DNA of 64,000 nucleotides from Clytia hemisphaerica (taxonomy: Eukaryota > Cnidaria > Hydrozoa > Leptothecata > Clytiidae), in assembly GCA_902728285.1 (NCBI GenBank), contig CACVBU010000743.1, positions 1,692,866 to 1,756,865 on the forward strand. Reading direction: 5' to 3'. The notes beneath the pieces are model-generated. The model did no database searches. It was not told the origin of the DNA and saw nothing but the letters and a program-made list of their open reading frames with translations. Shown piece after piece: positions 24,332 through 64,000 of the stretch. A program made the translations under genes and the position numbers. Numbering within the stretch: the stretch's first letter is position 1; every line of letters starts with the position of its first letter.

Positions 24332-25208
24332 TTAGGGTTAGGGTTAGGGTTAGGGTTAGGGTTAGGGTTAGGGTTAGGGTTAGGGTTAGGGTTAGGGTTA
24401 GGGTTAGGGTTAGGGTTAGGGTTAGGGTTAGGGTTAGGGTTAGGGTTAGGGTTAGGGTTAGGGTTAGGGTTAGGGTTAGGGTTAGGGTTAGGGTTAGGGT
24501 TAGGGTTAGGGTTAGGGTTAGGGTTAGGGTTAGGGTTAGGGTTAGGGTTAGGGTTAGGGTTAGGGTTAGGGTTAGGGTTAGGGTTAGGGTTAGGGTTAGG
24601 GTTAGGGTTAGGGTTAGGGTTAGGGTTAGGGTTAGGGTTAGGGTTAGGGTTAGGGTTAGGGTTAGGGTTAGGGTTAGGGTTAGGGTTAGGGTTAGGGTTA
24701 GGGTTAGGGTTAGGGTTCGGGTTAGGGTTAGGGTTAGGGTTCGGGTTAGGGTTAGGGTTAGGGTTAGGGTTAGGGTTAGGGTTAGGGTTAGGGTTAGGGT
24801 TAGGGTTAGGGTTAGGGTTAGGGTTAGGGTTAGGGTTCGGGTTAGGGTTCGGGTTAGGGTTAGGGTTAGGGTTAGGGTTAGGGTTAGGGTTCGGGTTAGG
24901 GTTAGGGTTAGGGTTAGGGTTAGGGTTAGGGTTAGGGTTAGGGTTAGGGTTAGGGTTAGGGTTAGGGTTGGGTTAGGGTTAGGGTTAGGGTTAGGGTTAG
25001 GGTTAGGGTTAGGGTTAGGGTTAGGGTTAGGGTTAGGGTTAGGGTTAGGGTTAGGTTAGGGTTAGGGTTAGGGTTAGGGTTAGGGTTAGGGTTAGGGTTA
25101 GGGTTAGGGTTAGGGTTAGGGTTAGGGTTAGGGTTAGGGTTAGGGTTAGGGTTAGGGTTAGGGTTAGGGTTAGGGTTAGGGTTAGGGTTAGGGTTAGGGT
25201 TAGGGTTA
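24332..25208 (+). repeat. interstitial telomeric repeat block (TTAGGG)n
   Basis: About 146 TTAGGG hexamers run without a break from the satellite edge to 25208. A few units are TTCGGG (near 24717, 24741, 24837, 24849 and 24891), one is TTGGG near 24969 and one is TTAGG near 25054. The G-rich strand reads rightward, the direction expected if the physical chromosome end were to the right, yet ordinary sequence follows. It is therefore an interstitial block, an old healed end, or a misjoin. The Leu-Gly open frame across it is only the translation of the hexamer. Confidence 0.97.
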
Positions 25209-26139
25209 TGGTCTTGGAAAACTAATTTGTCTCTTTAAGATAAATTTTTGTCTATATGCGATGCGTTTTTGATTCGCTAGTATCCTTTGTTTATATGCTA
25301 TAATTTTTTGTTTCTATGCGAATTTATCACATATAAACAAAATTTATAGCAGGGAAACAAATTTTTGTTTCAATACTATAGATTTTTGTCTTGCTGCAAT
25401 GTGAATTGTTTCTATGCTATTTTTCATTTGTTTCTGTGATATAAATCCTTGTTTTAAGCTTTTATAGGCCATTCCAGTATAGGGATGGAATTTGTTTGCT
25501 ATAAATTGCAGATAGCATGGTTTCTTTACAAGGACATTACTTTTAAGGTGAAAATCTTTCTATTTTTATTTTATATTGTTAAGATGATGTCATTTTTCAT
25601 CTGGAGACTATTTTTCGGTTTATCTCAACACAGTTTGATTGTTTCTGACTTTTAGAAGGACTCAAAAGCACTGAAGGGGAATCTCTGAAACTTGTATTTT
25701 TTTCTTAAGTGTTTTGGTACTCTGGTAAAGTATTGCGTATAATCCAAACTTTCGTTAAGTTTTCGGAAGCAGTTCCACCCCTCCTAGCATAATAAATTAT
25801 ACCTTTTGAGAAGCGCATTACGATGTAGAAAATAAAAATCGGTGTTACTTGAATTTAGATTTTATCAAAAAACCGTAAAAACCGAAAAATGCTGACGTAA
25901 GGAAAACTTGTTGTTTTAATAACTCTAGTTAGGCTAAGGGTAAAAAATGAAATTTGGATTATAGTTGCATATCATTAATAGAAACGTTTTTGCAAATTTT
26001 TTTTTTAATTTTTCTGACGTCAGCACTAATCAGCTAAATACTAAAATTTGCAATATCACTGCGTCAGCAAAATTTAAAAAAATGTTTTTTTCAAAAGATC
26101 CTTTTAATGATGTACATGAATTTAAGATGTTTTCAAAAG
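25209..26139. other. AT-rich non-coding DNA with scattered TTTGTTTCTATGC motifs
   Basis: No gene is visible. Between about 25240 and 25450 there are several imperfect copies of TTTGTTTCTATGC or the like (TTTGTCTATATGC, TTTGTTTATATGC, ATTGTTTCTATGC), a loose short repeat. The rest is low-complexity AT-rich sequence. Confidence 0.6.
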
Positions 26140-29100: not shown

Positions 29101-30110
29101 TATATAGCTAGAATAGTTTAAAAAGCAATGTCTTGATAATGCTGTATGAGTGGATAAATAAAACTTCTATTTTTTGCTTGTATCCAAAAGAAAATTGAAA
29201 CGGGCGTCGATAGATAAAACCTTATCACATGCTTTGCTTTTGGTGAAAATTAAGTCTGAAGTATAGAGTTAAAGTCTACCGTTTAAATATATTATCATGT
29301 CGTGAATCTTTTAACATTCCTTTCAAAAGTTCCTTCGTAAGATAAAATGCCAAGTTGCATGAATAGTTAAAAAGCTTTAATAGAGTGGGTATATGTGTAC
29401 GTATTGTACTCTCTGAAAGAATGGGGTAAAACTTAGATTAATCATGAAGTACATTTCAAGATTATTATCCGAAATATTATTTTCATCTTACTCAAATGGG
29501 ATGCTTCAATGTACATAACTTTTTGATTTACTTCTCAGACCTGATCTAAATAAAGAAACCCTTTTCACATAACTTTAAAATCAGCCTAATAATGTACCAA
29601 AATCATCATCTTTAAAAACACGATTTACCACTGTTCATAATGGAAAATGAGATTTTTTCCATAAACTTCATGTTACAAAATAGATGGCCATTAATTCTTT
29701 TGCAATTTTCTTATGATTGTTTCGAGTTAGAGCACTTTAAACTTTTAGGGATGGATAACATAGGAACAAATTATATTTCATCCCCAAAAGTTGTTTTTAT
29801 GCAATAATTCAAAATTGCCTTAATCTCATGAATTTATATAGTTAGAATAGTTTAAAAAGCAATGTCTCGATAATGCTGTAAGAGTGGATAAATGAAATTG
29901 CTATTTTTTGCAGTTTGCACGCTTAACACTAAGTTAGCTTGTCTCCAAAAAAATTGAAACGGGCTTCGATAGATAAAGCCGTACCACATGCTTTGCTTTT
30001 GGTGAAAATAAAGTCTGAAGTATAGAGTTAAAGTCTACCGTTTCAATCTATTATCAAGTTGTGATGCATTTAACATTCCTTTCAAAGATTCCTTTCTAAG
30101 ATAACATGCC
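26140..30110 (+). repeat. 745-bp tandem repeat, about 5.3 copies
   Basis: The landmark AATGTCTCGATAATGCTGTA or a close variant occurs at about 26141, 26890, 27634, 28382, 29127 and 29860, giving a period of 733-748 bp. Copies are roughly 85-95% alike by eye and share ordered blocks, including TTTTAGGGATGGATAACATA and a following stretch that ends in TTTCATCCCC. No open frame is kept between copies, so I see no coding function. Older copies of the same family lie at 48411-50110. Confidence 0.93.
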
Positions 30111-30780
30111 AAGTTTGTCCCGAAAAAATTGAAACGTTGAAACGTCGAAACGCCGTCAGATAAAGCCATACAACATACTTTGATTTTGGTAAAAATGAGT
30201 TCTGAAAACTAGAGTTAAAGACTAATGTTAAAATCTACAATCATGTTTGTTTTTCTGTTTTGTTTGAAATACTTCATATGCATTAGAGACTTCATATACT
30301 TATCTCGCAGTAAATTTAAAAAGGTTTCATAAAATCTTATTCAATGTAAATGACAGGCAGACAAATATAAAAATGAAAAACGTGAGTAAAGAAGTTTTAA
30401 AAGAAAATATCGTTTCAAAATTATTTTCCTTACTTCAATAAACAAGCTATGAAGATATGGCAAGGACTCAAAAAAATAATCAAAGAAACTATATTAACTG
30501 ATCTTTAAATTTTGCTTAGGCAATATGTTTGATTTTAATTCTTTTCTATTCATATTCTTAAAAAAGAGAAACTTCACAATATGGATGCTTGAAAGCTTTT
30601 TTCATAAGTTAATATCAATAATGTGATTGATGCAGAACTACAACTTCTTCTTTACTGACTATTTGAAAATGTTGGTACCTAAAAATAGCGACCGTCCCTG
30701 ATTTTTGTCTCTGTGTTTTCTAAGATCGTGAATTTCTATATTCTATCTAGCAGATAAATTCCAACGAATTTTCTTTCGAC
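30111..30780. other. AT-rich intergenic DNA
   Basis: A short stretch at about 30117-30220 still resembles the 745-bp repeat (an aaaattgaaacg block). Beyond that I see nothing recognisable on either strand. Confidence 0.5.
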
Positions 30781-31849: not shown

Positions 31850-33705
31850 GCATAAGCTTTTATAACTTTTGATAAAATACAAATTCTGATCTCAAATTTT
31901 GCAATAAGCTTGAAAATTATGATGTCCAAAAGTGTTTGAAATTTGAAAGTAAACGTACAAGTGGTTTTGATTCCCCAGCGCGTCAAAACTCATTTTTTTT
32001 ACCGCTTAACTTATAAAACTTGTGTTTGCTTATAACTTTTGATATGATTCAAATTTTGATCTCAAATTTTGAAATGAACTTGAACATTATGATATCTAAA
32101 AGTATTTCAAATTTGAAAGTAAACGTACAAGTGGTTTTGATTCCCCGGCGCGTCAAAACTCATTTTTTTGACCGCGTAACTTATAAAACTTGTGTTTGCT
32201 TATAACTTTTGATACGATTCAAATTTTGATCTCAAATTTTGAAATGAACTTCAACATTATGATATGTAAAAGTGTTTCAAATTTGAAAGTAAACGTACAA
32301 GCGGTTTTGATTCCCCGGCTTGTCAAAACCCATTTTTTTACCGCGTAACTTATAAAACTTGTGTTTGCTTATAACTTTTGATATGATTCAAATTTTGATC
32401 TCAAATTTTGAAATGAACTTGAACATTATGATATCTAAAAGTGTTTCAAATTTGAAATGAAACGTACAAGTGGTTTTGATTCCCCGGCGCGTCAAAACTC
32501 ATTTTTTTGACCGTGTAACTTATAAAACTTGTGTTTGCTTATAACTTTTGATATGATTCAAATTTTGATCTCAAATTTTGAAATGAACTTGAACATTATG
32601 ATATCTAAAAGTGTTTCAAATTTGAAAGTAAACGTACAAGTGGTTTTGATTCCCCGGCTTGTCAAAACCCATTTTTTATACCGCTTAACTTATAAAACTT
32701 GTGTTTGCTTATAACTTTTGATATGATTCAAATTTTGATCTCAAATTTTGAAATGAACTTGAACATTATGATATCTAAAAGTGTTTCAAATTTGAAAGTA
32801 AACGTACAAGTGGTTTTGATTCCCGGCTTGTCAAAACCCATTTTTTTTACCGCTTAACTTATAAAACTTGTGTTTGCTTATAACTTTTGATATTATTCAA
32901 ATTTTGATCTCAAATTTTGAAATGAACTTGAACATTATGATATCTAAAAGTGTTTCAAATTTGAAATGAAACGTACAAGCGGTTTTGATTCCCCGGCTTG
33001 TCAAAACCAATTTTTTTGCCGCGTAACTTATAAAACTTGTTTTTGCTTATAACTTTTGATACAATTCAAATTTTGATCTCAAATTTTGAAATGAACTGAA
33101 ACATTATGATATCTAAAAGTGTTTCAAAATTGAAATGAAACGTACAAGTGGTTTTGATTCCCCGGCTTGTCAAAACCCGTTTTTTGCCGCGTAACTTTTA
33201 AAACTTGTGTTTGCTTATAACTTATGACATAATCCAAATTTTGATCTCAAATGTTGAAATGAACTTCAACATTATGATATGTAAAAGTCTTTCAAATTTG
33301 AAATGATACGTACAAGTGGTTTTGATTCCCCGGCTTGTCAAAACCCAATTTTTTTGACCGCATAACTTATAAAACTTGTGTTTGCTTATATAACTTTTGA
33401 CATAATTCAAATTTTGATCTCAAATTTTGAAATGAACTTGAACATTATGATATGTAAAAGTGTTTTAAATTTGAAATGAAACGTACAAGTGGTTTTGATT
33501 CCCGGCTTGTCGAAACCCAATATTTTTACCGCGTAACTTATAAAACTTGTGTTTGCTGATAACTTTTGATATGATTCAAATTTTGATCTCAACTTTTGAA
33601 ATGAACTTGAACATTATGATATCTAAAAGTGTTTCAAATTTGAAATGAAACGTACAAGTGGTTTCGATTCCCCGGCTTCTCAAAACTCATTTTTTTGCCG
33701 TTTTA
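31850..33705 (+). repeat. 169-bp tandem repeat, about 11 copies
   Basis: The block CTTATAACTTTTGATATGAT recurs about every 169-170 bp (near 32030, 32199, 32368, 32538, 32708, 32878 and onward). Each unit also holds GATTCCCCGGCGCGTC or a variant with CTTGTC. Open frames of about 61 codons recur with the repeat and end in it, so they are shadows. The unit is close to nucleosome length, a common property of satellites. Confidence 0.95.
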
Positions 33706-34420
33706 AACACAGAAACAAAATTTAGGGATGGAATGCTTATAATGCGTCTTATTTTAGTATGAACTTTTTCTAACTGCAGTATTGTGTAGTATTTGATAGT
33801 CAAAATGTTTCTTGATAATCAAACCATGTGTTCTAGAAATATTTCTCAATTTGATACAAAATAATTTTCTTTCTTACTACTGCCGTTTTAAACACAGAAA
33901 CAAAATTTAGGGATGGAATGCTTATAATGCGTCTTATTTTAGTATGAACTTTTTCTATCTGCAGTATTGTGTAGTATTTGACAGTCAAAATGTTTCTTGA
34001 TAATCAAACCATGTGTTCTAGAAATATTTCTCAATTTGATACAAAATAATTTTCTTTCTTACTTACTAAGCCTTGTTTAGTGTGATTCAAAAATTATGTT
34101 TGCTTATAACTTTTGACGTATTTCAAACTTGTTTTATATACATGGAAAGTCAATTGTATGATTGTAAAGTGTTTGTAATTTTTTTCTCTTGTCAATCAAT
34201 TTTATTAGCTGTACATTAAAAAAAGAAAGAAACCCAATGCCTAAAGGAAAGTTTTAAACACAGAAACAAAATTTAGGGATGGAATGCTTATAGTGCGTCT
34301 TAATTTAGTATGAACTTTTTCTATCTGCAGTATTGTGTAATATTTGAAACCATGTGTTCTAGAAATATTTCTCAATTCAATACAAAATAATTTTCTTTCT
34401 TACTAAGCCTTGTTTAGTGT
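33706..34420 (+). repeat. 177-bp repeat, two tandem copies plus a third
   Basis: Sequence beginning GCCGTTTTAAACACAGAAAC at 33708 is repeated nearly identically at 33882, and a shorter third copy starts at about 34252. Each contains GAAACAAAATTTAGGGATGG and a GATAGTCAAAA...TTGATAATC near-palindrome. Confidence 0.92.
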
Positions 34421-34891
34421 GATTCAAAAAAGTAAAAAAAACAAATGCTTAAAGGAAAGCGTTAATACAAAAGTAAAATTTAGGGATGGGATGTTCATAG
34501 TGCATGGGATTTCTATGTAAACTGTTTTCTTCTCTGTAACATCATTTAGCGTTTGATGGTCCAAGTGTTTCTTTGACCATCAAACCATGCAATCTAGAAA
34601 TTATTTTCTATTAGAATTTGTTTTTTATTTTATTTTACAAAAATAATAATCTTTCCTACCAAGCCTTGTCCTTTCATAAAGAGACAAATATGGTCAAAGA
34701 AACACTTGGATAATCATTTGTTGAGTTTAAAACTCACTTCCAAAGCTCATTTGTAATTTGTTAACTATTTATCTTTCCTTTATCAAAAGTCTTATTAAAA
34801 GTTAGTAATGAATAATTTTCATAGTTATGTCTGTCATTTATTAATAGTTTCCTGTTAACTTTTGATGTTTATTATTATTTTTCTTTTTAAG
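34421..34891. other. 5' flank of the recombinase gene
   Basis: AT-rich. It holds another copy of the recurrent motif at about 34466-34490 and a 9-bp perfect hairpin, TTGATGGTC and GACCATCAA, at about 34552-34587. Immediately before the ATG at 34892 lies a long pyrimidine run ending in TTTTTAAG, a good 3' splice site, so an untranslated upstream exon is likely. No promoter element is convincing. Confidence 0.45.
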
Positions 34892-37800
34892 ATGTACACG
34901 TGTAAAGAGTGTGGAGCCCTATACTCCATACCTGAGCTCCAACTAAGAAAGACATGTAACGCATGCTATTTAAAACGGTTATGTGATGTTTTGGCTGACG
35001 TTACAATCAAACAAGTCGCAAAGAAAAACAATATGGGTAGCCAACTTTTAAAAGGGCCAAACGATATGCGGATGGTTAACTGTATAAAGAAAGCAATAGT
35101 TGATAAAAGAAAGGAACTTTCAAATGGCGGTCCAAATTCAGACGATAAAGATCAAGAAGATTTTGAAGATGATAAAGATAGTGAAGAAGATGAAGAAAGT
35201 GAAGAAGATGAAGAAAGTGATGGGGAAAGTGATGGAGATGAAGACTTTGACCCTAAAAGACATCAAAAAAGAAAGAAAGTTGTTTTATCATCAAAGGTTT
35301 CTGAATCTAAAGTCAAACACAAAAGAAAAGAAGGAAAGAAGAAGGAAAAGAAAAGAAAGAAGACACAACCGAAATCGCCTGACTGGAAAAACATACATTA
35401 TTACCCAGATATTGACGACTTTTCTGTTGATTTATCAGAGTTTGACGTAGATGATAGCATATTAAAGGCAAAACAGTCCAGAATTCGAGAAGATCTCATG
35501 AGTGCATTTGGAGAGCTTAACACTATCAAAAATCCCATGGAAATGATCAAAGAAGTAACCTGTCCCTTTAAAAGTTGCACTTTTAAGGGTGTCAATCTAA
35601 AGGATCATTTGACGCGTAAATCTACACATAATTGGCCAACAAACATGGCCATTTTGGAACAATCCTACCGAAAACGTCAGTTTTCTCACCTAACTAAAAT
35701 GCAAAAATTTAAGTCAATGGAACCTGCACCATGTTGTGAATGTGGATATTTCTTTGAACGCTTAGATTCACACGTAGCATCAAAAGCTCACAACATAAAA
35801 CGACACTCTTCTCAATATAAAAAGTTTATGATGGAATGCAACTTGGCCTATGAAAGCTTTCGCAGTTTCAGAAATTCTTTTCAAAACCTGAAACATGCAA
35901 GGTAAGTCCTTCTTGTAATTACTTGCCAAATTTAGATAGACTAGTATGGTAATAGCGCAATTGAACAGGATAAAATGAACTTTGAGAGTTTATATTCTCT
36001 TTTTATTTTTTCTTAATATTTGGGCGTTTCATACCACTGTTTCATGTATCATTGATCTCATCATTTCAATGACTTTTCACTCCTCTTGACGAGAAGATCG
36101 TTTAAATCATTCAAGACAGTCGTTTGTTTTACTCCCACTACACGTTTTTTTATTTATAAGCATCACAAGGGTGGGTTTTGTTTTGAAAACGATAGATCTA
36201 TTGTTGCAGGACAACAGAAATTAAAGCAAATACCCAGGCTTAGCAAAAATTACCCTATGCTTAAAAAAATAATTTTTTAACACTTCTGTTAGTTTCTTTC
36301 TCTTTTTTTATTACAGGGAACAGCAATCATTATTTAGAGAGGAAATTCCTAGGTAATATAAGCCATTCTATCTCTTACAATTTCTTTACACATTAACAAA
36401 AAAAGAAATGTTTCATTTGGATAACTTATATGATTCTCAAGGTCTTCTATCTCTGAAATACCACTTGATTTTACTATCCTGTTATTTTTATTGAATGCAG
36501 CCATTAATATATTTCTACAGTTATTTTTTGTGAAAGTAAACATTTCTTCTGCATTACAGCACATCAAGATCATCGTTTCCATTAAATTCGCAGTGGTAAG
36601 ATAGAGAGTTATTTGCTGCGTTGAGTAATTTAGCATGAGATATATTTAAAAAGTTTTACATCTTAAGGAAACAAAAATAAGGGATCGGGTTTTACTGAAG
36701 ACTTTTGTGCTCGGGATTTTTCTCATCTTCTTGTGCAATATTATTGTTAAAATATTGCAAAAAGCCAGAGCCTTTAAATAAAACTTGAAACTCGATGGGG
36801 CTTAAATTTAGCATGTGCGTATACATTTTTTAATTTTATTTTGATGGGTTCGGAACTAGAAAGAAGGACCACAAACTGTATGCTTTCAATTCTTTCAATG
36901 TTTTTATTTTTTTGACATTTACAATTTCTTTCTAATTTTCAGTGAACTCCAGAGCTCATCAGCAACATGTTCATCATCATTTACTTCTCGGTAAGAAAGT
37001 TTAAAATTACTTATATGAATTTTTATAGTATTTGATGGTTTTAATGTCGTAATTTGGCTTGAGAGATATTTAAAATATTTTAACATCTTAAGGAAACAAA
37101 AATAAGGGATCGGGATTAACTGAAAAATTTTGTACTAAGGGCTTTTCTCATCACCTTGTGTAATATTAATGTTAAAATATTACAAAAAGCCAGAGCCTTT
37201 AAATAAAACTTGAAACTCGATGGGGCTTAAATTTAGCATGTGCGTATACATTTTTTAATTTTATTTTGATGGGTTCGGAACTAGAAAAAAGGACCACAAA
37301 CTGTATGCTTTCAATTCTTTAAATGTTTTTACTTTTTGACATTTACAATTTTTTTTTTAATTTTCAGTGGACTCCAGAGCTCATCAGCAACATGTTCATC
37401 ATCATTTACTTCTCGGTAAGAAAGTTTACAATTACTTATATGAAGTTCATAGTATTTGATGGTTTTACTGTCATAATTTGGCATGAGAAATATTTAAAAT
37501 ATTTTTGCATCTTAAGGAAACAAAAATAAGGGATCGGGCTTTACTGAAAAATTTTTTACTCAGAGCTTTTCTCATCTCCTTGCCTAATATCATTGTTAAG
37601 CTATTACATATGCGTACACATTTTTTAATTTTATTTTGATGGGTCGAAACTAGAAAAAAAGACCACAAACTGTATGCTTTCAATTCTTTCAATGTTTTTA
37701 CTTTTTGACATTTACATATTTTTGTTTTTAATTTTCAGCGAACTCCAGAGTTCATCAGCAACATGTTCATCATTTACTTCCCAGTAAGAAAGTTTACAAT

Positions 37801-40800
37801 TACTTATATAAAGTTTCATAGTATTTGATGCTTTTACCGTCATAATTTGGCATGAGAAATATTTAAAAAAGTTTTGCATCTTAAGGAAACAAAAATAAGG
37901 GATCGGACTTCACTGAATTTTTTTGTGCTCAGGGCTTTTCTCATCTCCTTGTGTAATACTATTGTTAAACTATTACAAATTTACAAACTATTACATTGGT
38001 TTTTCTGTTATGTGTTATGTCATACATTTTAATTGCTTCCAACCATTTCTTTTGGTGAAAAAAAGTGTTCTTTGTATTACAGGAAAACCAGATCGTCGCG
38101 TCCATCACGATCGGCTTCAGCGAGGTAATTTTGAATGTATGGGAAATATTGTATCACAAGGTTAATATATTGTGTTACTTTGACTGCCAAAATAGCTAAT
38201 ACATTTTAAGGAAACAAAAATCAGGGATGAGTGTTTACACAGGCTCTAAAGCCACTTTGGTAATCATTTCAGCTACTAAAATATATTTTTTGAGCTTATT
38301 CTTAACCGTTTCTAACTAGTTTCAAAAGACAACATTCCGATGAATCGAGTGACGACGACAGTGATGACGGAAACAAGTAGGTGAATTTGATCAAGAAACT
38401 CGTTATGAACTGAATTAATTACACTTAAATTTTCTTTTGAATGGAATAACTTATGTTGAATGTGAAACAAAGATCAGAGAAGATCAAAAATATAGATTTT
38501 TCTATTTTCAATTATTCAGTGGAAAGAAAAAGATACTGAAAAAGGCTTCATCACACAAGATGGTCACAGCAAGTTACAAGATTTTCAAGCTGACTGATAA
38601 AATTGACATGACTAAGAACCACCATGAAGATATTGGGACTGATCCTCTCACCCAACAGTATTTGTTCTTGAATGCTGATGCACTCTTACATAATTTTCTG
38701 AACTGGATGTGCCTGTGTCGCAGAATGAAGGAGACCAATGCCAAAGAGGTAATAGCGACTATTTTACTCTCATTAAGAATTTGTTTAGTGATTTTTTCTC
38801 ATTAACCAAAATAATGAGTGGTTGTTTTACTTAATAACGATAACCACAATGAATAATAATACAAGCTATGTGACATGCGTCGTAAGAATCGAAGGAACTC
38901 ATGAATTTGTCTAAAGATTTTAGTCTAAGCTGACTTTTAATCTGATTTATTGTATACTTTTTATCGTTTAGATCCTTTCACATGTTAAGCATGTTTGGAA
39001 AACGATTGATGTGAATCTTACATGTGGCTTCAAAACTTTGCTGACAGGTGAAAATGTGTCGGACGTGTTTTTTAATCCATTGGTCGCTGAGATGGAAATT
39101 GAAATGAAAAAACCCCTTGATTGCCAGAAACAAAATTTCTACAAACCCACTACACTCTCCACCAAGACAGGCGCTGTCATTTTGTTCCTCGACTTTGTTG
39201 AAGAAAGGAGAATTTATTTTGGTTTGAAGTTGGCTGAGATCAAAATATTCCGAAAACAAATGAAGACAAACCAAAAAGGTTTAAACTTAAAACTTATATA
39301 TAATGAAATTCATATTCTGTACAACTTGTTACCTTCGTGACATTCGTGTGGCAGAGCAACATTTATTTATCATATCAGCAGTATATATCAAATAGTCAAT
39401 CTAAACATCTTCATATATCTTTAAAAAGTATAGAAAAGTTGTGCTTTTTGAATGCTTCAAATGATATGCAACCTCACTTTCCAGTATTTTTTTTACTTCG
39501 CAAATTTAGGTCTCAACAAATCAACAAAACAGCGGCAGCAAGATGTGCAGGATAACAAACTTGACCACCTTCTCCAAATCAAAGATTTTGCAGCATATGG
39601 CAATTCTAATTATGTAAAAGAAATCGTCAATAGGCTGAGCGACAGAAACTCATTTTTCACGCTAAGGGAAGCCTTTGCAGCGAGGAATATGCTGTTCGTT
39701 TTTTTATGCTACACAAATGGTGTCAGGGCGTCAAACTTGATGACCATGACGTTAAGAGATTTCAAGAAAGCGGATTGGGATTTAGAGTTTAAGGCGTATG
39801 TTCTTAAAAACAAACGATACAAAACCAGTCTTTTGTATGGACAGAAGATCATCGTGCTTTCAGCTAACCTTTACCAAATGTTTAATACATACATTAAAAG
39901 ATGTCGGAAATACTTTGTTACCGATGAAGACAAAAGATCTTATGAGAGGTATTTTTTTTTTGTCTCAATCACTTATCATTGTTTGCTGTTCATTCAAATT
40001 CATTTCTGCAATCATTTTATAAAATTCACTATTTAAAGTTAAACTCTTAACAATATTTCATTCATTTTTCTATCAGACCGATGTTTCCATCTTCGCAGAC
40101 AGGGTTACCGCTTCCTCACCCAGCTATCTGCAAGGCAATGAGCAAATCTTTCGAGGAAGCAGATTCCCTAAAGGGAACGAAATTAGATGAAAGGATATCT
40201 CCAACGAGGATTCGCATATCAATAGCAACTGAATTTTCTGCAAATGAAGGTTATACTAAATAAATACGGCAATGATACTTTTTCTCTATTTATTTTCTAT
40301 AAAACAGGTGCATAAATTATTAAAGTCTATCCAAAAACTTTGCAGGCACTGTATTTTTGTAATGAATATGATAAGATATGCAACCATAGCATTTAAATGT
40401 TTCCTTGATTAGAAGAACGAAAACAACGTAGTAGCCAACAGTAGCTCTGTTATGGGTAAATCAAATACGTTGTATTTTTAATTATTCTACTTAGAACTTT
40501 TGATAAAACAATCACAAAGAACTCTGTTCAAATGTTAACTTACACGGAGAAAATTGTCTTTGTTCATTGGTTTAGGTGTCGATTATGATAGGTTTGCCGA
40601 ACTCTTTATGAAGCATCGAGCAACCACAAGTAAAAAGTTTTACGTTACACGATTCAACCACAGAGAGGCAATTCAAATGAGCCTTAAATGCTATGAGGTA
40701 ATTAAATATACTATTAGTAGCTACAAACGTTTCAACTCGATCCATTGAAAAATGGACTTCACTTATTTGATTGTGGTAACAGCGGACTTTTTAACAGCTT

Positions 40801-43800
40801 ATCCATTCATGGATAAAAGTTAGTTTTTTTCATGACAGTTTTCATCTCTCTTAAAACACGTCAGGTTTTTGGAATTGACAAAACACTACAGACAGAGGCA
40901 AAGAAATTCGCAAAATCAATCAAGACCACTTCGAGTAACGCGGGGAAGTTGAAAGATTGGCTCAAAAAGAATATCACGATGATAAAGGAAGAAACAGGTG
41001 AAGATGCTTGTGATGAGGAGATCGTAGAAGAGCTGAGATCGCTTTTAGGTAACTAGAATGCTTTGTTCCTCTGTGTATTTGGCCTTTTATTGATGAATAA
41101 ATCATAGATATGAGGAGAAAGTAGTAAGAAGCTGGTATATAGGAAAACTTTATTGTGACCCTTTTAGACTTCAGCCATAACATGAATTCAATTATTTTAT
41201 ATTCATTTCGCTTCTTTCATCTAGGAAGTATGGATGGTGAAAAAAGCAACATCGGACAAGAAGGTTACTTATTTATATTTTTCTCTTCATGATTTTGAAC
41301 AGATTTTACAGAAACAATATTTAGGGATTGGGTCATATTTCTCATTTGGAGAGATATATCCATTAATACTTTGAGGTTTTTTTTTCATTAGATGCAGTAG
41401 GTGTGGATATAAACACTTGTACAGAATCAAGTAATGGTGTGTAGTTACTTATATCAATTCATCTGACTTTGCGAACCTGCTGTTTGATAATTCTAAACCA
41501 AAAAACAAAACAAATGTTATCTCATACATTAATGTCGTACTGTTTATTTAATTATAGTAAAACATGTTTTTTCCAAATTACGTAAAACAAGATAGATCCT
41601 CTGTTTTTGGAACACGTATAAGTATTTACAAAGAAAACCGCATTGATTTTTTAACGGAATGTATAAGAACAAAGTTTAGGGATCACGATACGTGAAACCA
41701 TCTGTCAATGACCCTTTATTTTCTTTCCCCATCTTTTTTACCGAGGAGGTTTCGAAATTTTTCATGATTTGTAATACTTTAGGCATTGAAGAAAGCGACA
41801 CAACCCATGATATTAAGAGATCCTCTGAGGAGACATCAGGTAAGATTGCATTTATCGTAATTTTGTTTTAATTGCATCATTGTTCTTTTGTAATAGATCG
41901 TTCTGAAACAAGACTTAGGGATCACCATATGCTAATTAGATTTTGAAGCTATTTTTCAAAGGACCTGCTCTTTTATCTGCCACCATTTCTTACCGAGGAT
42001 GTTTCCAAATTTTTCATGATTTGTAATACTTTAGGCATTGAAGAAAGCGACTCAACACATGATACTAAGAGATCCTCTGAGGAGACATCAGGTAAGATTG
42101 CATTTATCTTAATTTTGTTTTAATTGCATCATTGATCTTTTGTAATAGATCGTTCTGAAACAAGACTTAGGGATCACCTTATGACAATTAATTTTTGAAG
42201 CTATATTTCAGAGGACCTGCTCTTTTATCTGCCACCTTTTGTTACCGAGGGGGTTTACAAACTTTATATGATTTGTAACACTTTAGGCATTGAAAAAAGT
42301 GACACAACCCATGATATTAAGAGATCCTCTGAGGAGACATCAGGTAAGATTGCATTTATCGTAATTTTGTTTTGACATCATTGTTCTTTTGTAATAGATC
42401 GTTCTGAAACAAGACTTAGGGATCACCATATGCTAATTAGATTTTGAAGCTATTTTTCAAAGGACCTGCTCTTTTATCTGCCACCTTTTGTTACCGAGGG
42501 GGTTTACAAACTTTATATGATTTGTAACACTTTAGGCATTGAAAAAAGCGACACAACCCATGATATTAAGAGATCCTCTGAGGAGACATCAGGTAAGATT
42601 GCATTTATCTTAATTTTGTTTTAATTGCATCATTGATCTTTTGTAATAGATCGTTCTGAAACAAGACTTAGGGATCACCTTATGACAATTAATTTTTTAA
42701 GCCATTTTTCAAAGGACCTGCTTTTTCATCCGCCAACTTTTCTTGCCCGGACACATATACACTTTGTAACATTTCGATATTGAGGTTTTATATCTTAATT
42801 CTATAGAAACATCATATTCATTCATTAGATTAATTTATTTTGTTAATTTTTCTGTTATTCAGGAGATATGGAGATCGATGACGATGGCAATGGCAGTATT
42901 AGTAAGTGATTCTTTCTCAAAGAAATGTCATCTAGATTTTTAAAGTATTTGTTCAATTCACAATTGAATTTGGCATTTCCAAAGAATGTTTTTTCAATCA
43001 AAATTTAATTTAGTGGAAAGGTTATAAATTATTTTCTATCATTATATTCTTTAGACTTTTCGATAGAGTTTGACATCAACAACTTAAAAGACAGTTCTGG
43101 TGCGTATAATCGTTATTATTAAAATTGTTATTTATTAGGGATTCAGGGTTATGTGAATAAATTAAAGAAACTAAATTTGCATCGTTCTTGTAGCTGCTTC
43201 CATATTGTTCTTAACATTAGTAACCATTTTTTGTTTTTTTCTATGCGTGTGTTCAAAAAGTAAAGGATGTTGTTTTTATATGTTTTAGAATCTACCATCA
43301 TTTCAGAAATTTTGGATGAATTGATCGACAAAGTCTCTAACATAAGTCCTTTAAATGACGGTAAGACTGAGTTTTATTTTTCTATTTTAAATATATGTTT
43401 TACTTTTACTTCCAGTGGTTTTTTTGCATATGTATTGATATCCTGACGACTATTCATTTTAAGTAATGTATATTTTTATTTAAGTTTTTCCTTTTTGGAA
43501 TTTATTAACCTATTTAAGTTTTAGCCAAAACAAAAGAAGTAACAACTGTAAAAGAAGAAACCAAATTAAAGGACTTTAAAGTTGTTCTTAAAGACGTCCA
43601 ACATAAAACTACCTCAGGCAAAAGTAAGTGTAGATATTCTGCATTGAAAAAAAAGGATTTGGATATGAGTTATTGTTAAGTTAATCTGAATAAAACTGAT
43701 AAGAAATCTATATTTGATTCAAACAGTGGGTTTTGCTTAAAATGAAGAGAAAAAAATCTTATGACTTTGTATTCTAGTGTTTGCCTATTTTTAAATTTTA

Positions 43801-46085
43801 GCATTCCGTGAAAACATCGAAATTAAAGAGAATTCAGACAAAAGTAAGTGTAAAGTTTTTTCCAGCTAATGCACTTGACAGTCAAACAATGCTAAATAAT
43901 TTGACTATTTTCTGTAACTGTACCTCAACTTTGTTATTAATAATATTTTCTATTCACTGAAAATTATTCTTTTTGTTACAGGCAAAAAAGTACTCAGTAA
44001 AGATGGTGAAGTAATCTTCCTAAAGGATACGTTTCAAGGTAAATAATTTTATTCGAGCGTTGGGTGTTTAAAAGATGACAAGTGTTGCGCAGAATCGTGA
44101 CCTTTCGTAGAAAAGTTTTGAGGTTTTGAGGATTAGTTGATGGTACATGCTGGCTAACTACGTAACTATTAGTTTATTGCCAAACTTTTCAAAGTATACC
44201 ATCACATACAAAAACCTCTTTATAATTAAAATTGCTTAATAGAAATCTGGCTAAACTCCTTATGTGTTCCCCAGAAATTTAACATTTAATATATTTTTGA
44301 ATATTGAATTCAATATATATTAATGTATTCACTTTTTAAGCTAATTAAAAACAAATTCAAGGTGTCATCCCTAAAAATTGTTTCCTTGAAAAGGAATTTA
44401 AAACAACCATCAGTGTCCAACACGAAAACTAGTTTGCGTGACTTTTTATCATTTATTGATTTCATGTAAAAAATCTTTTCAGAGGAGGAAGTACCAAGAA
44501 GACAACTTAAAGAGGTTTATAACAAGATGAAACGCCTGACATCAAAGGATGTTGATAATTTTTACACCACCTTCAGGAAGCATCTTTCGTCTTTGGTTGG
44601 GGGTGGATGTGCTTCTGCACGATACGAAGTTTTGTTTGGTACAAAACAGCATTTTGATTATGAAGGGAAGCAAATCACAGTGCATCTGTTAAACCATTAT
44701 CAAAACACGGGTAAGTTATATTTAAGCTCTGTATTTCGGTAAATACACACATTTCATTTTTAAAATTAAGGTGTTTCATACTTGAATAAAATGAGCTTTA
44801 TGATATATTTGTTCTAAATCTTTTAGGCTTTCTAAAAGATGATTTGTACGAACACTTTGAAAAGGCAGTTGATGAACTCTTCCCATCGAAAAACTCGTTA
44901 GATTTGCATCGAAAGTTTAACTTATTAATACCCGTCTCATTGATTTGGTTAACACAATTCGAGACAAACCTATCTGCCGAACAAGCCGCATACTTTCTGT
45001 CCCATCATTATGAAGGAGCAACGAATAGTAAGCTCTTTTTTATTTCCTTGAATTTAAAGAAGATATTTAACTAATCTGATTTCGAAAATTATAAAGTTGA
45101 TTCCGTTAAAAGTAATAAAGAAGAGGTATCTTATATCTAACAGCTTTATTTAAAGATTCCTAATTCGTTAACTAACACGTTATTCGTTAAAAAGTATTGT
45201 TGCATCGTTATCGATCTCTCGACTGACTGTCTAACCTATTTTTTTAATTACTACTTGATCGTAAAAAGTAGTCAGATTTCAGTTGTATATATTCATAACT
45301 CACTTACATTGTAACCGTTTATTTTTGTTTTATCCTTTTCTGACTGAAACCTATAATATCTTTTTGAGAATAAAAATTGTTTACTGGATCTTTATTTCAA
45401 TATCTGAATCTTTATTTGTAGCTAAACATTGGCCACCTTTTTACGGAGGCACAGTGATAAGTTAAGCGTATTCAAATTTCAGCACAATCTGAGGACGAAG
45501 CGGAAGAAGAAAAAGAAGAAGAAAGCATAAATGAAAACAAAATGGACAAAGGTAGGGTTAAAGTCTTTCTAATTATCAAACCTGGGAAAACAAGCAATGT
45601 CTTATCAAGTATTTTCAATGACTAGACAAATTTACCTTAATCTATCAATCAAACAAAATATTAATTATGACGAAAAGTTTATTTTAGAAAAAGTTCTTCT
45701 TACACTATTACAATGGTAATATTTTATTCTATTATATCCAGATAAAACGTTATCATTCAGACGAGACTTTTCGCTTGAAGATTGGCACCAGACGACAAAG
45801 CTAACTCGGGAGCAATTACTGATCTTGGTGTTTGTCATCAAAGACTTGATTCGACAAGGAAAATATATTAAGAAGTCGCTTTTCGAAGACACCTTAAGAG
45901 TGGCCACTACCACATATCCAAGAGCACGTCAGCTTTGTGACTTGACATGGAATGCTCACTTTAAAGACGTCATTACCAGTATGACAAGAAAATTTATCAA
46001 AGAGAAGAGAACAAAAGATACTTCGAAGTTTGAAGAGTTTGTTTTGGAAGCACGTAGACTTTACAACTATGATTTAAAACATTAG
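34892..46085 (+). CDS. Crypton-like tyrosine recombinase gene, 30 exons, intact
   Basis: Exons: 34892-35901, 36317-36352, 36560-36595, 36943-36990, 37368-37415, 37739-37783, 38083-38124, 38320-38376, 38520-38748, 38972-39278, 39510-39948, 40077-40249, 40576-40697, 40865-41048, 41225-41263, 41392-41436, 41783-41839, 42035-42091, 42287-42343, 42536-42592, 42863-42901, 43055-43099, 43289-43360, 43525-43623, 43802-43843, 43982-44038, 44483-44710, 44827-45027, 45483-45551, 45742-46085. Together they give 4284 nt and 1427 residues with GT-AG borders and no stop. Seen: a C4/C7/C22/C25 zinc finger, acidic and Lys-rich stretches (83-160), Cys-His fingers at about 224-246 and 281-300, and a recombinase domain at about 620-864 with R692, K724, T809-x-x-R812, H837 and nucleophile Y846. 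Known: this family cuts and rejoins DNA through the Tyr. Inferred: a Crypton transposase or a host gene derived from one. The start was chosen at the ATG directly after a splice acceptor. The tail after about 925 is unrecognised. Confidence 0.85.
36317..38376 (+). other. micro-exon cluster of the recombinase gene, Ser-rich linker
   Basis: Seven exons of 36, 36, 48, 48, 45, 42 and 57 nt all begin and end in phase 2 (two bases carried over), so any can be skipped or duplicated without a frameshift. Exons 36943-36990, 37368-37415 and 37739-37783 are near copies (core LQSSSATCSS) and their flanking introns are also copies, showing tandem duplication of exon plus intron with periods of 425 and 371 bp. 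They encode a Ser-rich linker between the zinc fingers and the recombinase domain. Confidence 0.82.
41783..42592 (+). repeat. four tandem 57-nt exons, 19-residue protein repeat
   Basis: Exons 41783-41839, 42035-42091, 42287-42343 and 42536-42592 encode nearly the same 19 residues, GIEESDTTHDIKRSSEETS. Each sits in a repeat of 249-252 bp that includes the intron. All borders are phase 1, each exon ends CATCAG before GTAAGATT, and each is preceded by an ACTTTAG acceptor. The peptide is acidic and Ser/Thr-rich and probably disordered, lying after the recombinase domain (about residues 954-1029). Confidence 0.9.
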
Positions 46086-46185
46086 TGATTTTTCTATTTT
46101 AATGTTTTACTTTGTGATAGCAACAGTGGAGATTTATTTCAACGGTCGTATTCGCTCGATTCGAAAATAGTTAGAGGCTAAAATT

Positions 46186-46235
46186 TACAATAAAAAAATA
46201 AATATAAAGTAAGAAAATAAAATACAAAATTTAGA
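46186..46235 (+). terminator. candidate polyadenylation signals of the recombinase gene
   Basis: AATAAA at about 46189 and further AATAAA-like hexamers to 46225 lie some 100-140 bp after the stop codon at 46083-46085, a normal 3' UTR distance. Confidence 0.5.
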
Positions 46236-46449
46236 ATACTAAGGAGCTAATCTGAGATATAAGCTAAGTTTTGTGTTTGGTTTTTTTATTGGTATTTCAC
46301 CTATCATTATTGTTGAATAAACGAACGTTGAAACAAAACCTCACTGTCGCTATCACGTATATAGCACGTGTAGTGTGTTTTTCTTTTATTACATATATAA
46401 TGTATCTTTTGAAGTCTTTGTATATTATCTTCAAATCTATATGTAGATT

Positions 46450-46840
46450 TATAGGAGATAATTAATGTTGACATTTTCTTTTCTTATGAAACCTATCCCT
46501 GAAATTTGTTTTTTCAGAATGCAACATTTTACTTGAAAAAGAAAAAGCGAAAAAGAAGGTGTTTCAACACAAAAACGGAAGTAGAATTTGCGTTATTTTC
46601 CCTAAAGTAAAGTTTGATAGGAGATAGATATTGTTGACTTTTTATTTCTCTTTGAAACCCAACCCTGAAATTTGTTTCTTTGCATTGCAACATTAAACTT
46701 GAAAGTGAAAAATTGAAAAGAAGGTCTTTCAACACAAAAATGGAAGTAGACTCTGCGTTAACTTTCCTAAAGTTAATATTGATAGGAGATTTATGATATT
46801 TTTGACTTTTTATTTCTCTATGAAACCTCTGTTAGGGTTA
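46450..46840 (+). repeat. 165-bp direct repeat, 2.4 copies
   Basis: Blocks starting ATAGGAGATA are repeated at about 46452, 46617 and 46780. They share CCCTGAAATTTGTTT and a downstream TTTCAACACAAAAA. The third copy breaks off at a short CTGTTAGGGTTAGG. The CCCTGAAATTTGTTTC part is the recurrent intron motif in reverse. Confidence 0.85.
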
Positions 46841-47270
46841 GGTTAAATTGAAGCCTCAAAGGGATGCCATCTATAGGTGTATTTTACCCCTCATGCAAAG
46901 AAAATTGAAAGAGACCGGCCGTTGTGTGTAGAGTTTTAATGCTACGTCTTTGAAACTTTGCAAAATTGTTCTCCAGTCAGTAGAGAGGCCTCAGGGAAAG
47001 TTTGATGGGCTAAAAACGAGAACATTTCGCAGCCCGTAGCCCGGCGACCGCTGACGGTGGAGTGATGAAATTTGGCATGCTCCCCCCTCAACATTGTTAA
47101 CGTCTCCAGAAAGTTTCAAGTCGTGAGACCCGCCCAGTTCCGTACAGGTCCTTTACAGTCCCATAGTGCCTTCCCGTCAACTGTATAGGACTTTGGACCA
47201 TTTTTTTTCGGAATCTACATAAAAAAAAACATAAAATATCAAAACCTGGATGAAAATTTAAAAAAAGACC

Positions 47271-47343
47271 TTGACCCGATTCGAACTAGGGATCCCCAGT
47301 GCGTGAACCAAAAGCCTTATACCACTGGGCCAACTTACTTCTC
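47271..47343 (-). repeat. tRNA-like pol III head, probable SINE
   Basis: On the minus strand TGGCCCAGTGGTATAAGGC (47332-47314) is an excellent A box, and GTTCGAATCGGGTC (47286-47273) is an excellent B box at tRNA-like spacing. The predicted acceptor arms do not pair and the T stem is poor, so a working tRNA is unlikely. A T/A-rich stretch follows. Confidence 0.6.
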
Positions 47344-47491
47344 GCTGTGCACCGATGAAACTTCTATGGGCTGTGATGGCTTGCTAATGATCTCTAAAGA
47401 CCCCTTAGAGCATTCTTGAGGTTTGCCTAAAGATGCAAAAGAAAAGCACATCCACCCAAAACCATAGCATAGCATTACTAGAAGAAAAACT

Positions 47492-47577
47492 TCCCCCATC
47501 CAAGTACTCCGACTATGCTTAACTTCTGTGATCTGAAGAGAACGGGTGTTTTCATCCTCCTATAGATGTGGAGCATG
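47492..47577 (-). pseudogene. 5S rRNA-derived sequence (SINE3 head or 5S pseudogene)
   Basis: Read on the minus strand, the segment carries AACACCCGTTCTCTTCAGAT, then CACAGAAGTTAAGCATAGTC, then AGTACTTGGATGGGGGA. These line up with the conserved middle of eukaryotic 5S rRNA, including the internal control region (A box, then C box). About 8 nt expected between the GTCGG and AGTACTTGG parts are missing, and the 3' quarter is lost. It is thus a broken 5S copy or the head of a 5S-derived SINE. Confidence 0.75.
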
Positions 47578-48410
47578 CCTGGAATGTTTTTTGGCTATTT
47601 TTACTTTGCTCAAGGCCAACTAAGCAGTCAGGCAAAGTCCTCCGGTGGGACCGAATGATCAGTAAAGCAAATTTCCCCGGTTGGACCGATTCAGGCTCCT
47701 ACAGCCCTCCACAGCCCCCCATAGCCTTTGGGACCCCTTCGGAAACCTACTGCATTGTTCTCCCTCAAAGCCAACACCCTCCATCAGTCCTCCGAAGCCA
47801 TTAGAAGGCTTGGAAAGGCTTGAAACTTGGAGAAAATTCGTCAAAACTAGAAAAAAATGAACCGGAGAACAAGTGTGCACAAGATCTAAGACGTAGCATT
47901 AAAACTCAACACACAGTGCCCTGTCAAAAAATTGCTTAAATCCCGTTTGACACCTTCCCGTAAGGACGATTGCCGGGCCGTACGGCGTTTTCAGCCGGTC
48001 AAATTTCCCGTGAAGCATCTCTACCGACCGGAGAACAACTTTTTGCAGTGCTTTGAATTTACAGACCTGGGTATTCGCCATTCGAAACGGAGTCGGGGCC
48101 CTTACGTCGTTTTCATCCAAATTTTAATATTTCATCTTTTTATGGTGTAGATTCCGAAAAAATTGGTCCCAAGTTCTGAAAATGTCGCAGGAAGGCTCTA
48201 CGGGGGGGTCTAGGCCCTTAGGGGACCCTTCCGTAGCGTCGGACTGGGTGGAATTTACGTATTGAAATTTTCTTGAGACGTTGAGCATGTGAAAGGGGGG
48301 AAGTATGCCAAATTTGATACCTTCGCCGGCCGTGAAAGTACAGTGTGGGACGTTCTGTACGGCCGTTTTACGGCTTAAAAATGCTGGACTTTTTTTCAAA
48401 AATCGCTTTA

Positions 48411-50110
48411 CCATGGTTCATAATGGAATTTTTTTATAAATTTCATATTAGAAAATAGATGCTCATTAAGTCTTTCACAATTTTTTTATCATTTTCTCGA
48501 GTTACACCACTTTAAATTGTTAGGGATGGATAGCATAGAAACAAATTATATTTCATCCCCAAAAATTGGTTTTATGCAATAACTTAATAATATTTATAGT
48601 TGACTCCTCTGAATCTTCAGTGGATTCGTCAACACCATGAAAAATTACATTGCATGCCGTGGATTGAATCTATTGTTCCTCATGTTTTTCCCTTCGAAGT
48701 ACGTTTTCTATGTTCTTCTCAATTTGCCTTAACACGACTGCTGCGTAGCTTTGGGATCTACTTTCTCCTTTCTTCTCAATGATGTCTTCCATCTTCTTTT
48801 CAATCATTGCCAATCTGGTCTCAAAGCTATCCTTTAATTCGCTGATCATTGTATTGACGTCTTTGGACTTAAGTTAAGTGATTTCTACGTCCTGGGCTTT
48901 CATTATATTTTCGCAAGCTTTTATCTCCTTCCGGAATCTTGAAACTGTTGATGTTTCACATGAAGTAACCCGTTCCAATAGATCAGGATTAATCACAACA
49001 CAATTTCGACAAATAAAAGCTCTCGATATATATGTTAGACATAACTGGATTTGATAGACGGAGAGCTTTTAACAGAAGAAGTGTACGATTCGATTGCACT
49101 TCTTATATTCAAATGTGTATTTAGGATCTTCCTTCTTCACTTGAAACACATTCAGATGGGCTGCAAAGGTTGTAAATTGATGCTGAATTCGGTTGTTTTC
49201 GTAGATTTTCCTGAATTTTCTCCGCCATATTTACATCTTTTAACAACACATCCGTTCAGTTTTATTTGACGTCAGAAAGGGCTAAATCTCATGAATTTGG
49301 AACGTTTTCAAGAAAAAATTTTTCTATAATGTTGTAAGAGTGGGTAAATGATGACGAATAAAGGAAAAAAATACTATTTCTTGCATTTTGCTAAGCGTAA
49401 CTTAAAAATGTTTAAACTTCATGAAATTGGATTGTCTTGTTTAAGCCTGCTAAATAAACTTTTAAACCCTTCAGTGACAGTTGTAAGCTGACTTTTCATC
49501 TTATGGTTCAATTAGTTAGGTTTTACTTTCTAGATTCCTTGCTAGGAATAACTGACTTCAAAAGGGATCAAAACTACCCTCTCCCATGTTCTACATCACC
49601 TTTTGACTTTCTTTTTAGACCTAAACGTGTTAAAAAACTCTCAACATAACTATAAAATTAGCTTTATAGTTTAATAAAGTCATTAGTTTGAAAAACACGC
49701 TTTAACATGATTCGTAATAGAAAATAAGGTTTTTCCATAAACTTCATATAATATATTAAATGGTCATTAAGTTTTTTCCGTGGCTTTGTTAGCAATTTCT
49801 CGAGTTACATTAATTTAAAAATTTAGGGATGGATAGCATTTGAACAAATTATATATCATCTCCAAAAATTGTTTTTATGCAATAAGTTAAAAATGCCTAT
49901 ATCTCATAAATTTGGACACTTTTATAAAAAAAAAGTTTCCATCATGTTGTAAGAGTGGACGAAAAAGATTTTCTGAAAAAATCGCTTCTTTTTTCGTTTT
50001 GCTCGCCTAACACTAAATCAAAAAAGTCTAAGAAAAAAATCGAAACGGACCGCGTTGGATAAAATTGTACAACTTACTTGGATTTTGGTCAAAATGAGGT
50101 TTTTAAACTA
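48411..50110 (+). repeat. old copies of the 745-bp family, split by a LINE fragment
   Basis: 48411-48595 and 49275-50110 match blocks of the 26-30 kb repeat in the same order: a TTTACCAYGGTTCATAATGG-like start, TTAGGGATGGATAGCAT, TTTATGCAATAA, TAATGTTGTAAGAGTGG and a GAAACGGACC block. Identity is clearly lower than among the 26-30 kb copies. The break at about 48595-49275 falls between the AATAACTT and AAATCTCATGAATTT blocks, which are adjacent in intact units. Confidence 0.8.
48600..49228 (-). pseudogene. decayed LINE ORF1 (PHD-like finger plus coiled coil)
   Basis: Read on the minus strand, fragments show YKKCNRIVHFFC and later FICRNCVV, the H-x-x-C and C-x-x-C halves of a PHD-type finger. 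A charged coiled-coil stretch follows (SELKDSFETRLAMIEKKMED) and then NVIFHGVDESTEDSEES, a match to the start of the RNA-binding domain in ORF1 of many animal LINEs. Three in-frame stops and a doubtful 5' part show it is dead. It sits inside a copy of the 745-bp repeat. Confidence 0.7.
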
Positions 50111-50481: not shown

Positions 50482-50627
50482 TTAGGGTTAGGGTTAGGGT
50501 TAGGGTTAGGGTTAGGGTTAGGGTTAGGGTTAGGGTTAGGGTTAGGGTTAGGGTTAGGGTTAGGGTTAGGGTTAGGGTTAGGGTTAGGGTTAGGGTTAGG
50601 GTTAGGGTTAGGGTTAGGGTTAGGGTT
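50482..50627 (+). repeat. second interstitial (TTAGGG)n block, about 24 hexamers
   Basis: Perfect TTAGGG repeats of about 146 bp in the same orientation as the large block at 24.3 kb. It ends GGGTTATG, as the large block also does. No satellite is next to it. Confidence 0.97.
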
Positions 50628-50900
50628 ATGTTTCCTGTAGGTATTGCATCGCATCCAGTAGTCTTTGTATCGTATCAAGTAGGTTTTGTATCGCCAAAGT
50701 CGGTATTGTAGCGCCATTGAAAAATGGCGCTATAATACCTACTAAAGTAGGCAACTTATCGCGGTAGGCTCTGTATCGTTTAACCACCTTCTGCGATGTT
50801 ATACCTACTTCAAAGGTAGGCATTGTAACGTTTTGTAGGCATTATATTGCTTTGTTTCATTATATTGCTCTTTTCATCTTTTTATCGCGTTAAAGTTATA
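50628..50900. repeat. short imperfect repeats of GTAGGTATTGTATCG
   Basis: Directly after the telomeric block, variants of a 14-16 bp motif recur every 20-50 bp: GTAGGTATTGCATCGC, AGTAGGTTTTGTATCGCC, GTCGGTATTGTAGCGCC, GGTAGGCTCTGTATCG, GTAGGCATTGTAACG. A GCGCCATT/AATGGCGC hairpin lies at about 50710-50730. No gene is seen. The rest to 51400 is AT-rich with degenerate telomere-like runs near 51250-51290. Confidence 0.6.
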
Positions 50901-63919: not shown

Positions 63920-64000
63920 CTAAAATCAATATTATATCAATATCAATATCAATATCGATTGAATTTTTTTTGAGTCCTTAGGAACAATGTCAATATTTGA
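60388..64000 (-). repeat. 744-bp tandem repeat carrying one exon per unit
   Basis: Five units with periods of 743, 744, 744 and 743 bp, about 98% alike, running off the window. Each unit holds one 237-nt exon (79 codons, phase 1 at both ends) with a TTGATTTTAG acceptor and a GTAAGAAAG donor, plus about 506 bp of intron. Units 1, 3 and 5 share one set of variants (NNPILV, PIPSN) and units 2 and 4 another (NSPILV, PIPPN), so the array is built of dimers. Unit 3 lacks one base and unit 5 has one extra base in the exon, at the same spot. Confidence 0.93.

Follow-up and report, generated by a model that had tools for sequence, protein, structure and literature searches.

The 64,000-bp stretch of the Clytia hemisphaerica genome analysed here (the window) corresponds to positions 1692866–1756865 of C517, a 2.63-Mb contig in an assembly of 417 Mb and 951 contigs. 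Between positions 34892 and 46085 of the window, on the plus strand, lies what is, as read from its sequence, a true multi-exon gene encoding a tyrosine recombinase, and one that is presumably transcribed. The gene would belong to an old, multi-copy, intron-bearing recombinase family, probably Crypton-like, of which it is the only full-length subfamily copy found, and it would be selected for catalysis. We assign this reading a probability of roughly 0.6. The initial annotation had proposed a domesticated recombinase or an unusually intron-rich Crypton.

Gene structure and splicing

Re-splicing joined the 30 exons into 1427 codons followed by a single terminal stop, as the initial annotation had claimed, and residues R692, K724, R812, H837 and Y846 were each found where it had placed them. 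All 29 introns were bounded by GT and AG, all 29 acceptors were of the form YAG, and 15 of the 29 donors read GTAAG. Retention of any one of the introns broke the frame. Exons had a guanine-plus-cytosine (GC) content of 38%, against 28% for introns. Tandem exon copies were excluded from training for a leave-one-out codon test, in which the claimed frame ranked first of six in 23 of the 30 exons, and all ten exons of at least 120 nt passed. The seven exons that failed were 36–48 nt each, and the short exons are thus the less certain part of the model.

Symmetric exons made up 22 of the 28 internal ones. Exons 4–6 and 17–20 were tandem duplicates, the duplicated unit being an exon with its intron. 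Two splice joins, one following residue 765 and the other residue 823, fell within the part of the protein that can be aligned to known recombinases. AATAAA signals followed the stop codon (Table 1). A tblastn search of the window with the spliced protein gave no further match.

Recombinase domain and active site

As judged by domain profile and residues, the product is a tyrosine recombinase, presumably a catalytic one. The Pfam model PF00589 (Phage_integrase) matched residues 673–847 at 26.7 bits, with E = 5.4 × 10−6 when the domain was the query, and the NCBIfam models XerD and XerC gave E values of 2.9 × 10−6 and 1.3 × 10−5. A reference profile was assembled from six enzymes: XerD, XerC, FimB, FimE and IntS (E. 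coli K-12) and lambda Int. An alignment of the family matched this profile with 96.7% probability (E = 4.2 × 10−10). Among itself and 579 open reading frames of the window, the spliced protein had the highest score against it, the runner-up being a frame that contains exon 11, and residues 619–870 outscored all 2000 of 2000 shuffled sequences. Profile matches to tyrosine recombinases, whose absence the initial annotation had named as a refutation, were found. A search of the PDB with a five-member family profile returned XerD chains first (E = 4.6 × 10−4 and 5.7 × 10−4); poxvirus capping-enzyme subunits, behind XerD at 0.0075 and 0.01, were taken as chance matches. The PDB search with the single sequence gave no match, and AlphaFold2 modelling of exon 11 by itself gave an unusable result (mean predicted local distance difference test score, pLDDT, of 42).

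In known enzymes of this class, the tyrosine forms a 3′-phosphotyrosine on cutting, assisted by two arginines, a lysine and a His/Trp. The register against XerD placed GLRVSEL over GVRASNL (R692), HVLRHAFAT over TRIRISIAT (R812), GH over KH (H837) and the XerD tyrosine over Y846. Arg I, Arg II and Tyr were thereby aligned with those of known enzymes. K724 was the invariant lysine of the family, with positions 719 and 721 variable. The claim of a full catalytic set was too strong: the five residues that it named were present, but the box-II His (HxxR) was replaced by Thr809, giving TRIR in place of HVLR of XerD. About 560 residues followed the end of the catalytic domain at residue 864.

The N-terminal zinc-binding-like motifs, together with the region encoded by exons 9–10, would bind DNA. 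Within the catalytic domain (exons 11–13), R692, K724 and R812 would hold the scissile phosphate with the help of H837, and Y846 would attack to form the 3′-phosphotyrosine, strand exchange occurring afterwards. Every member of the family legible at the box-II position had Thr there in place of His, or Ser in some relatives. Thr at this position may be regarded as compatible with activity, which is no proof of activity, because Cre tolerates loss of the same His: its H289A mutant recombines at reduced efficiency, according to the part of PMC4381057 that concerns it.

A dispersed recombinase family

Searches of the assembly with the 245-residue domain gave at least 98 exon-level matches (142 of 142 candidates scored) on 36 contigs, by our own count from the match listing; all match counts are lower bounds. 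Some relatives were intronless in the domain, among them a single 498-residue frame on C205. A lone domesticated gene, as the initial annotation had envisaged, is not supported by a family of this size. Exon 1 had at least 21 matches, one of which, on C250, spanned all 336 residues at 91% identity; C250 was matched by neither the domain search nor the C-terminal search. For exons 27–30 at least 10 matches were found, four of them the window gene itself, and the best elsewhere reached 55%. Beyond the C261 paralog, at a distance of 6.5 kb and in the same orientation, lay a C-terminal relative. Many near-identical full-length copies, named at the outset as the mark of an active transposon, were not seen, the C-terminal exons having no second match above 55%. 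Leaving C250 aside, the window gene was the only full-length copy of its subfamily found.

Thirty loci were returned. Eight of them represented the window gene and its close copies on C937 and C390, and two overlapped, so that the residue counts in paralogs refer to 21 places. Arg occupied the position of R692 in 20 of the 21, with Cys in one, and Lys that of K724 in all 21. Position 809 was Thr in 15 and Ser in five of 20 visible places. R812 was matched by Arg in 20/20 visible places and Y846 by Tyr in 16/16. When the window gene and its two copies were included, the counts were 23/24 for R692, 24/24 for K724, 23/23 for R812 and 18/19 for Y846.

In a midpoint-rooted tree of 24 sequences, all family members, the window gene grouped with the copies on C937 and C390, and this group adjoined C261 and a group comprising C13, C128, C517, C541, C672 and C608. 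A paralog on C517, ~74 kb downstream of the window gene on the minus strand, was 32–47% identical by piece. Its introns after exons 10, 11, 12 and 13 fell, by eye, at the same residues and in the same phases (1, 2, 1 and 0). The intron after exon 9 was shifted by about eight codons, an extra intron lay near the Arg-692 position, and there was one in-frame TAG. The viral_contigs, genome_contigs and phages collections contained no relatives in searches that mostly used exact 8-residue seeds and so reached close relatives only.

Selection on the catalytic exons

The nearest relatives read, on C937 and C390, were both truncated and interrupted. Introns included, they matched the window gene over 35380–44363 and 39616–44083, respectively, with 84–95% identity in long non-overlapping pieces. 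Exon 11 of C937 was split by ~2 kb at base 39616. Homology to C390 started at this very position, adjoining the same end of the insert. Further inserts occurred in exon 1 of C937, in intron 12 of C390 and in intron 23 of both. Within the stretches read, neither copy carried exons 27–30 or the initial 430 bp of exon 1.

Ratios of non-synonymous to synonymous change (dN/dS) were determined by the NG86 method with six tandem exons (4–6, 18–20) excluded. For exons 11–13, the window gene gave 0.29 against C937 (200 codons, p = 0.0036) and 0.23 against C390 (199 codons, p = 0.0010), two comparisons that are non-independent, as the window branch is common to both. Over the 365 codons shared by all three sequences, the values were 0.48 for the window gene against either copy and 0.93 for C937 against C390. 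The values for exons 11–13 support purifying selection on the catalytic exons; selection for transposition would yield the same sign of dN/dS.

Comparison with known systems

In the portions of PMC3212892 that describe them, animal Cryptons are without a C-terminal domain and Crypton recombinases carry the tetrad R-H-R-Y; CryptonV of Repbase is listed in part of PMC5753468. The window gene resembles animal Cryptons (CryptonA/CryptonI) in being a multi-copy eukaryotic tyrosine recombinase with no coupled reverse transcriptase seen. It is set apart from their published description by its 1427-residue, 30-exon protein, by Thr809, by the lack of visible element ends and by its long C-terminal extension, which has relatives in the genome. 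Of the tetrad, R, R and Y were kept and H had become T, the equation of the tetrad His with the box-II His being our reading of the convention. The proposal of an unusually intron-rich Crypton was thus close in kind, but the tetrad His was absent, extra regions were present, element ends were not seen, and Pfam gave no DUF3504 match up to E = 1.

Crypton-derived DUF3504 host genes (KCTD1, KIAA1958, ZMYM2/3/4, QRICH1 and WOC) likewise combine a recombinase-like domain with further regions. The window gene differs from them in keeping Y846 and R812 and in having no DUF3504 match. With XerD and XerC it shares the catalytic domain by profile and aligned R, R, H and Y columns, and it is unlike them in its 19–23% identity, its replaced box-II His, its eukaryotic multi-exon structure and its long extensions. 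Unnamed tyrosine recombinase genes with zinc fingers, annotated in invertebrate genomes, would share with it motifs of the type N-G-x-R, YKTS..YG, TRIR and MKH..T..Y. A literature search, with most subscription journals outside its scope, found no title on such a recombinase family. The family does not fully match the published description of either Cryptons or Crypton-derived host genes; its origin is probably Crypton-like.

Spread of the family and alternative explanations

An intron-bearing DNA transposon of the Crypton type, excised as a circle and reintegrated, could also explain the gene; selection would then be for transposition, and the intact window copy might still be mobile. The large dispersed family, the damaged copies and the relatives without domain introns would all be expected, as would near-identical relatives on separate contigs (C672/C608 at 99.6%, C563/C546 at 98.6%, C13/C128/C517 at 96–98% over most of their length), some of which could be accounted for by allelic contigs. 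We nevertheless consider a transposon of this kind rather unlikely, as copies of one subfamily seem not to share ends, which varied from pair to pair. High-identity homology between C517 and C13 started at C517-strand position 3891, that to C128 at 6050; the C128 homology started at the same point for C517 and C13, the right ends of the set differed, and a 17.6-kb stretch interrupted the C517 member relative to C13. The spans matched in C937 and C390 were likewise unequal, both copies were without the ends of the gene, and no C-terminal match above 55% was present elsewhere in the genome. Self-comparison of the window (pieces of at least 100 bp) found no flanking repeat pairing 30–34.9 kb with 46.1–48 kb. 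Segmental duplication or conversion would explain the unequal homology ends in C517, C13 and C128 better than the insertion of a fixed-end element. The family likely has an old transposon origin; its intron-bearing copies seem to have spread mainly through segmental duplication.

A recombinase domesticated to serve the host, a single functional gene for DNA binding or programmed recombination amid dying relatives, would fit the only full-length copy found, the constrained catalytic exons and the intron positions common to a divergent paralog. The active site was kept in many relatives, however, and Crypton-derived vertebrate host genes lost the catalytic Tyr and the second Arg, unlike the window gene, as stated in section 10 of Kojima and Jurka 2011 (PMC3212892), so that this explanation is doubtful. 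A more speculative and improbable proposal is that the host took over an active recombinase family whose genes are intron-rich and whose active site is of the Thr/Ser type, for programmed DNA rearrangement or as a retained active enzyme. If true, this would be a host-adopted family with its active site kept, unlike those published genes. That the gene is an unexpressed relic, its frame open by chance or youth, would agree with the nearly equal divergence of exons and introns from the copies and with the damage in the close copies read, but sits poorly with the intact ends of all 29 introns, a frame open over 1427 codons and catalytic dN/dS values of 0.23–0.29, and we regard it as improbable too. 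DIRS and Ngaro retrotransposons also encode tyrosine recombinases (in the part of PMC4157794 that treats them), and a remnant of one seems very improbable here. Non-exon frames of at least 85 residues within the gene span were all shorter than 120 residues, by eye and with no search made. By eye, no reverse transcriptase was recognised among frames of at least 85 residues at 25.2–64 kb, where an intron-split one could be missed; a peptide at 51.7 kb that looked like one had no Pfam match and was rejected.

Several observations weigh against membership of a family selected for catalysis, which we nonetheless prefer. The PF00589 score was 0.4 bits under the curated cut-off of 27.1, the NCBIfam scores were far under the equivalog cut-offs, and the single domain sequence matched the six-enzyme profile with 51% probability (hhalign), albeit in clear register. 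Neither the zinc-binding-like motifs encoded by exon 1 nor the C-terminal part had a significant Pfam match. The position of H837 was His in 11 and Asn in five of 16 visible paralog places, and the Flp mutant H305A is blocked in recombination after cleavage, in the passage of PMC4381057 on that enzyme. Constraint was weaker over all coding sequence shared with C937 (754 codons, dN/dS 0.59, p = 0.011). Exon and intron identities were similar, at 93.7% and 93.9% for C937 and 94.9% and 94.7% for C390, the intron values being those of best local pieces, which flatters introns. The constraint observed is therefore one on the catalytic exons, not on the whole gene. The selection proposed by the initial annotation is supported for exons 11–13 and by the residues kept in divergent paralogs, and more weakly over all shared codons. 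Tandem exon copies showed no significant constraint (10 variable columns of 102 in exons versus 66 of 484 in introns, p = 0.19). In exons 11–13, C937 against C390 gave a dN/dS of 0.32 (9 differences, p = 0.09), which counts against the reading because dead copies should show no constraint.

With R, K, R and Y kept, the box-II His replaced wherever legible, and its catalytic exons apparently under purifying selection, the family is a good system in which to ask two questions: whether a tyrosine recombinase is put to use by an animal-type genome, and how enzymes of this kind persist when no element ends are obvious.

Features of the gene and its surroundings

Table 1. Features of the recombinase gene (window coordinates)
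Feature	Position	Strand	Basis
Exon 1, residues 1–336: N-terminal CxxC..CxxC, acidic/basic linker, two C2H2-like motifs	34892..35901	+	by eye; no Pfam match at curated score
Exon 2	36317..36352	+	re-splicing
Exon 3	36560..36595	+	re-splicing
Exon 4, tandem copy 1 (exons 4–6)	36943..36990	+	re-splicing, duplication
Exon 5, tandem copy 2 (exons 4–6)	37368..37415	+	re-splicing, duplication
Exon 6, tandem copy 3 (exons 4–6)	37739..37783	+	re-splicing, duplication
Exon 7	38083..38124	+	re-splicing
Exon 8	38320..38376	+	re-splicing
Exon 9, paralog-conserved; start of probable core-binding region	38520..38748	+	
Exon 10, paralog-conserved; probable core-binding region	38972..39278	+	
Exon 11, catalytic domain, R692 and K724	39510..39948	+	re-splicing, Pfam, profile alignment
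Exon 12, catalytic domain, T809 (box-II position) and R812	40077..40249	+	profile alignment
Exon 13, catalytic domain, H837 and putative nucleophile Y846	40576..40697	+	profile alignment
Exon 14	40865..41048	+	re-splicing
Exon 15	41225..41263	+	re-splicing
Exon 16	41392..41436	+	re-splicing
Exon 17, tandem copy 1 (exons 17–20)	41783..41839	+	re-splicing, duplication
Exon 18, tandem copy 2 (exons 17–20)	42035..42091	+	re-splicing, duplication
Exon 19, tandem copy 3 (exons 17–20)	42287..42343	+	re-splicing, duplication
Exon 20, tandem copy 4 (exons 17–20)	42536..42592	+	re-splicing, duplication
Exon 21	42863..42901	+	re-splicing
Exon 22	43055..43099	+	re-splicing
Exon 23	43289..43360	+	re-splicing
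Exon 24	43525..43623	+	re-splicing
Exon 25	43802..43843	+	re-splicing
Exon 26	43982..44038	+	re-splicing
Exon 27, C-terminal region	44483..44710	+	re-splicing, genome search
Exon 28, C-terminal region	44827..45027	+	re-splicing, genome search
Exon 29	45483..45551	+	re-splicing, genome search
Exon 30 and stop codon	45742..46085	+	re-splicing, genome search
AATAAA polyadenylation-like signals (46189, 46197, 46216; further one at 46316)	46189..46221	+	

A motif near GAAACAAAATTTAGGGATGG occurred at 12 places within three mismatches at 33712–46678, where 0.02 were expected. A genome-wide repeat was considered and rejected, as the genome contained the exact form three times, each time within the window, and viral_contigs did not contain it. 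AGGGAT was present in 13 of the 29 introns (12 sense, one antisense), some of these introns being tandem copies.

The GC content of the sequence was ~33%, which, together with the TTAGGG arrays, the intron sizes and a neighbouring SET-domain gene, suggests an invertebrate animal. Rfam (24–64 kb) and tRNA searches gave no match. A 113-bp satellite filled positions 1–24300 (~24 kb) and extended into the left flank; its repeats were 99% alike within 4258–24136 and 95% alike before that. Adjoining it were 147 TTAGGG copies at 24331–25212, with 24.5 more at 50482–50628; by their sequence and their place far inside the contig, these arrays are interstitial telomere repeats. A 170-bp tandem array (31860–33700) lay directly upstream of the gene. 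A ~745-bp tandem repeat at 26131–30115 had diverged relatives (70–87%) across the gene, at 48394–50095, and an inverted-end stretch downstream (47065–48318, ~69% alike) is perhaps a fold-back element. A ~744-bp tandem repeat (98%) at 60386–64000 ran off the window; a minus-strand frame was open in three copies and, as judged by eye, shifted in two. Exons of a SET-domain gene were located at 58091–58816 on the minus strand (Pfam SET, E = 8.7 × 10−15), and both of the core pieces mapped back at 100%.

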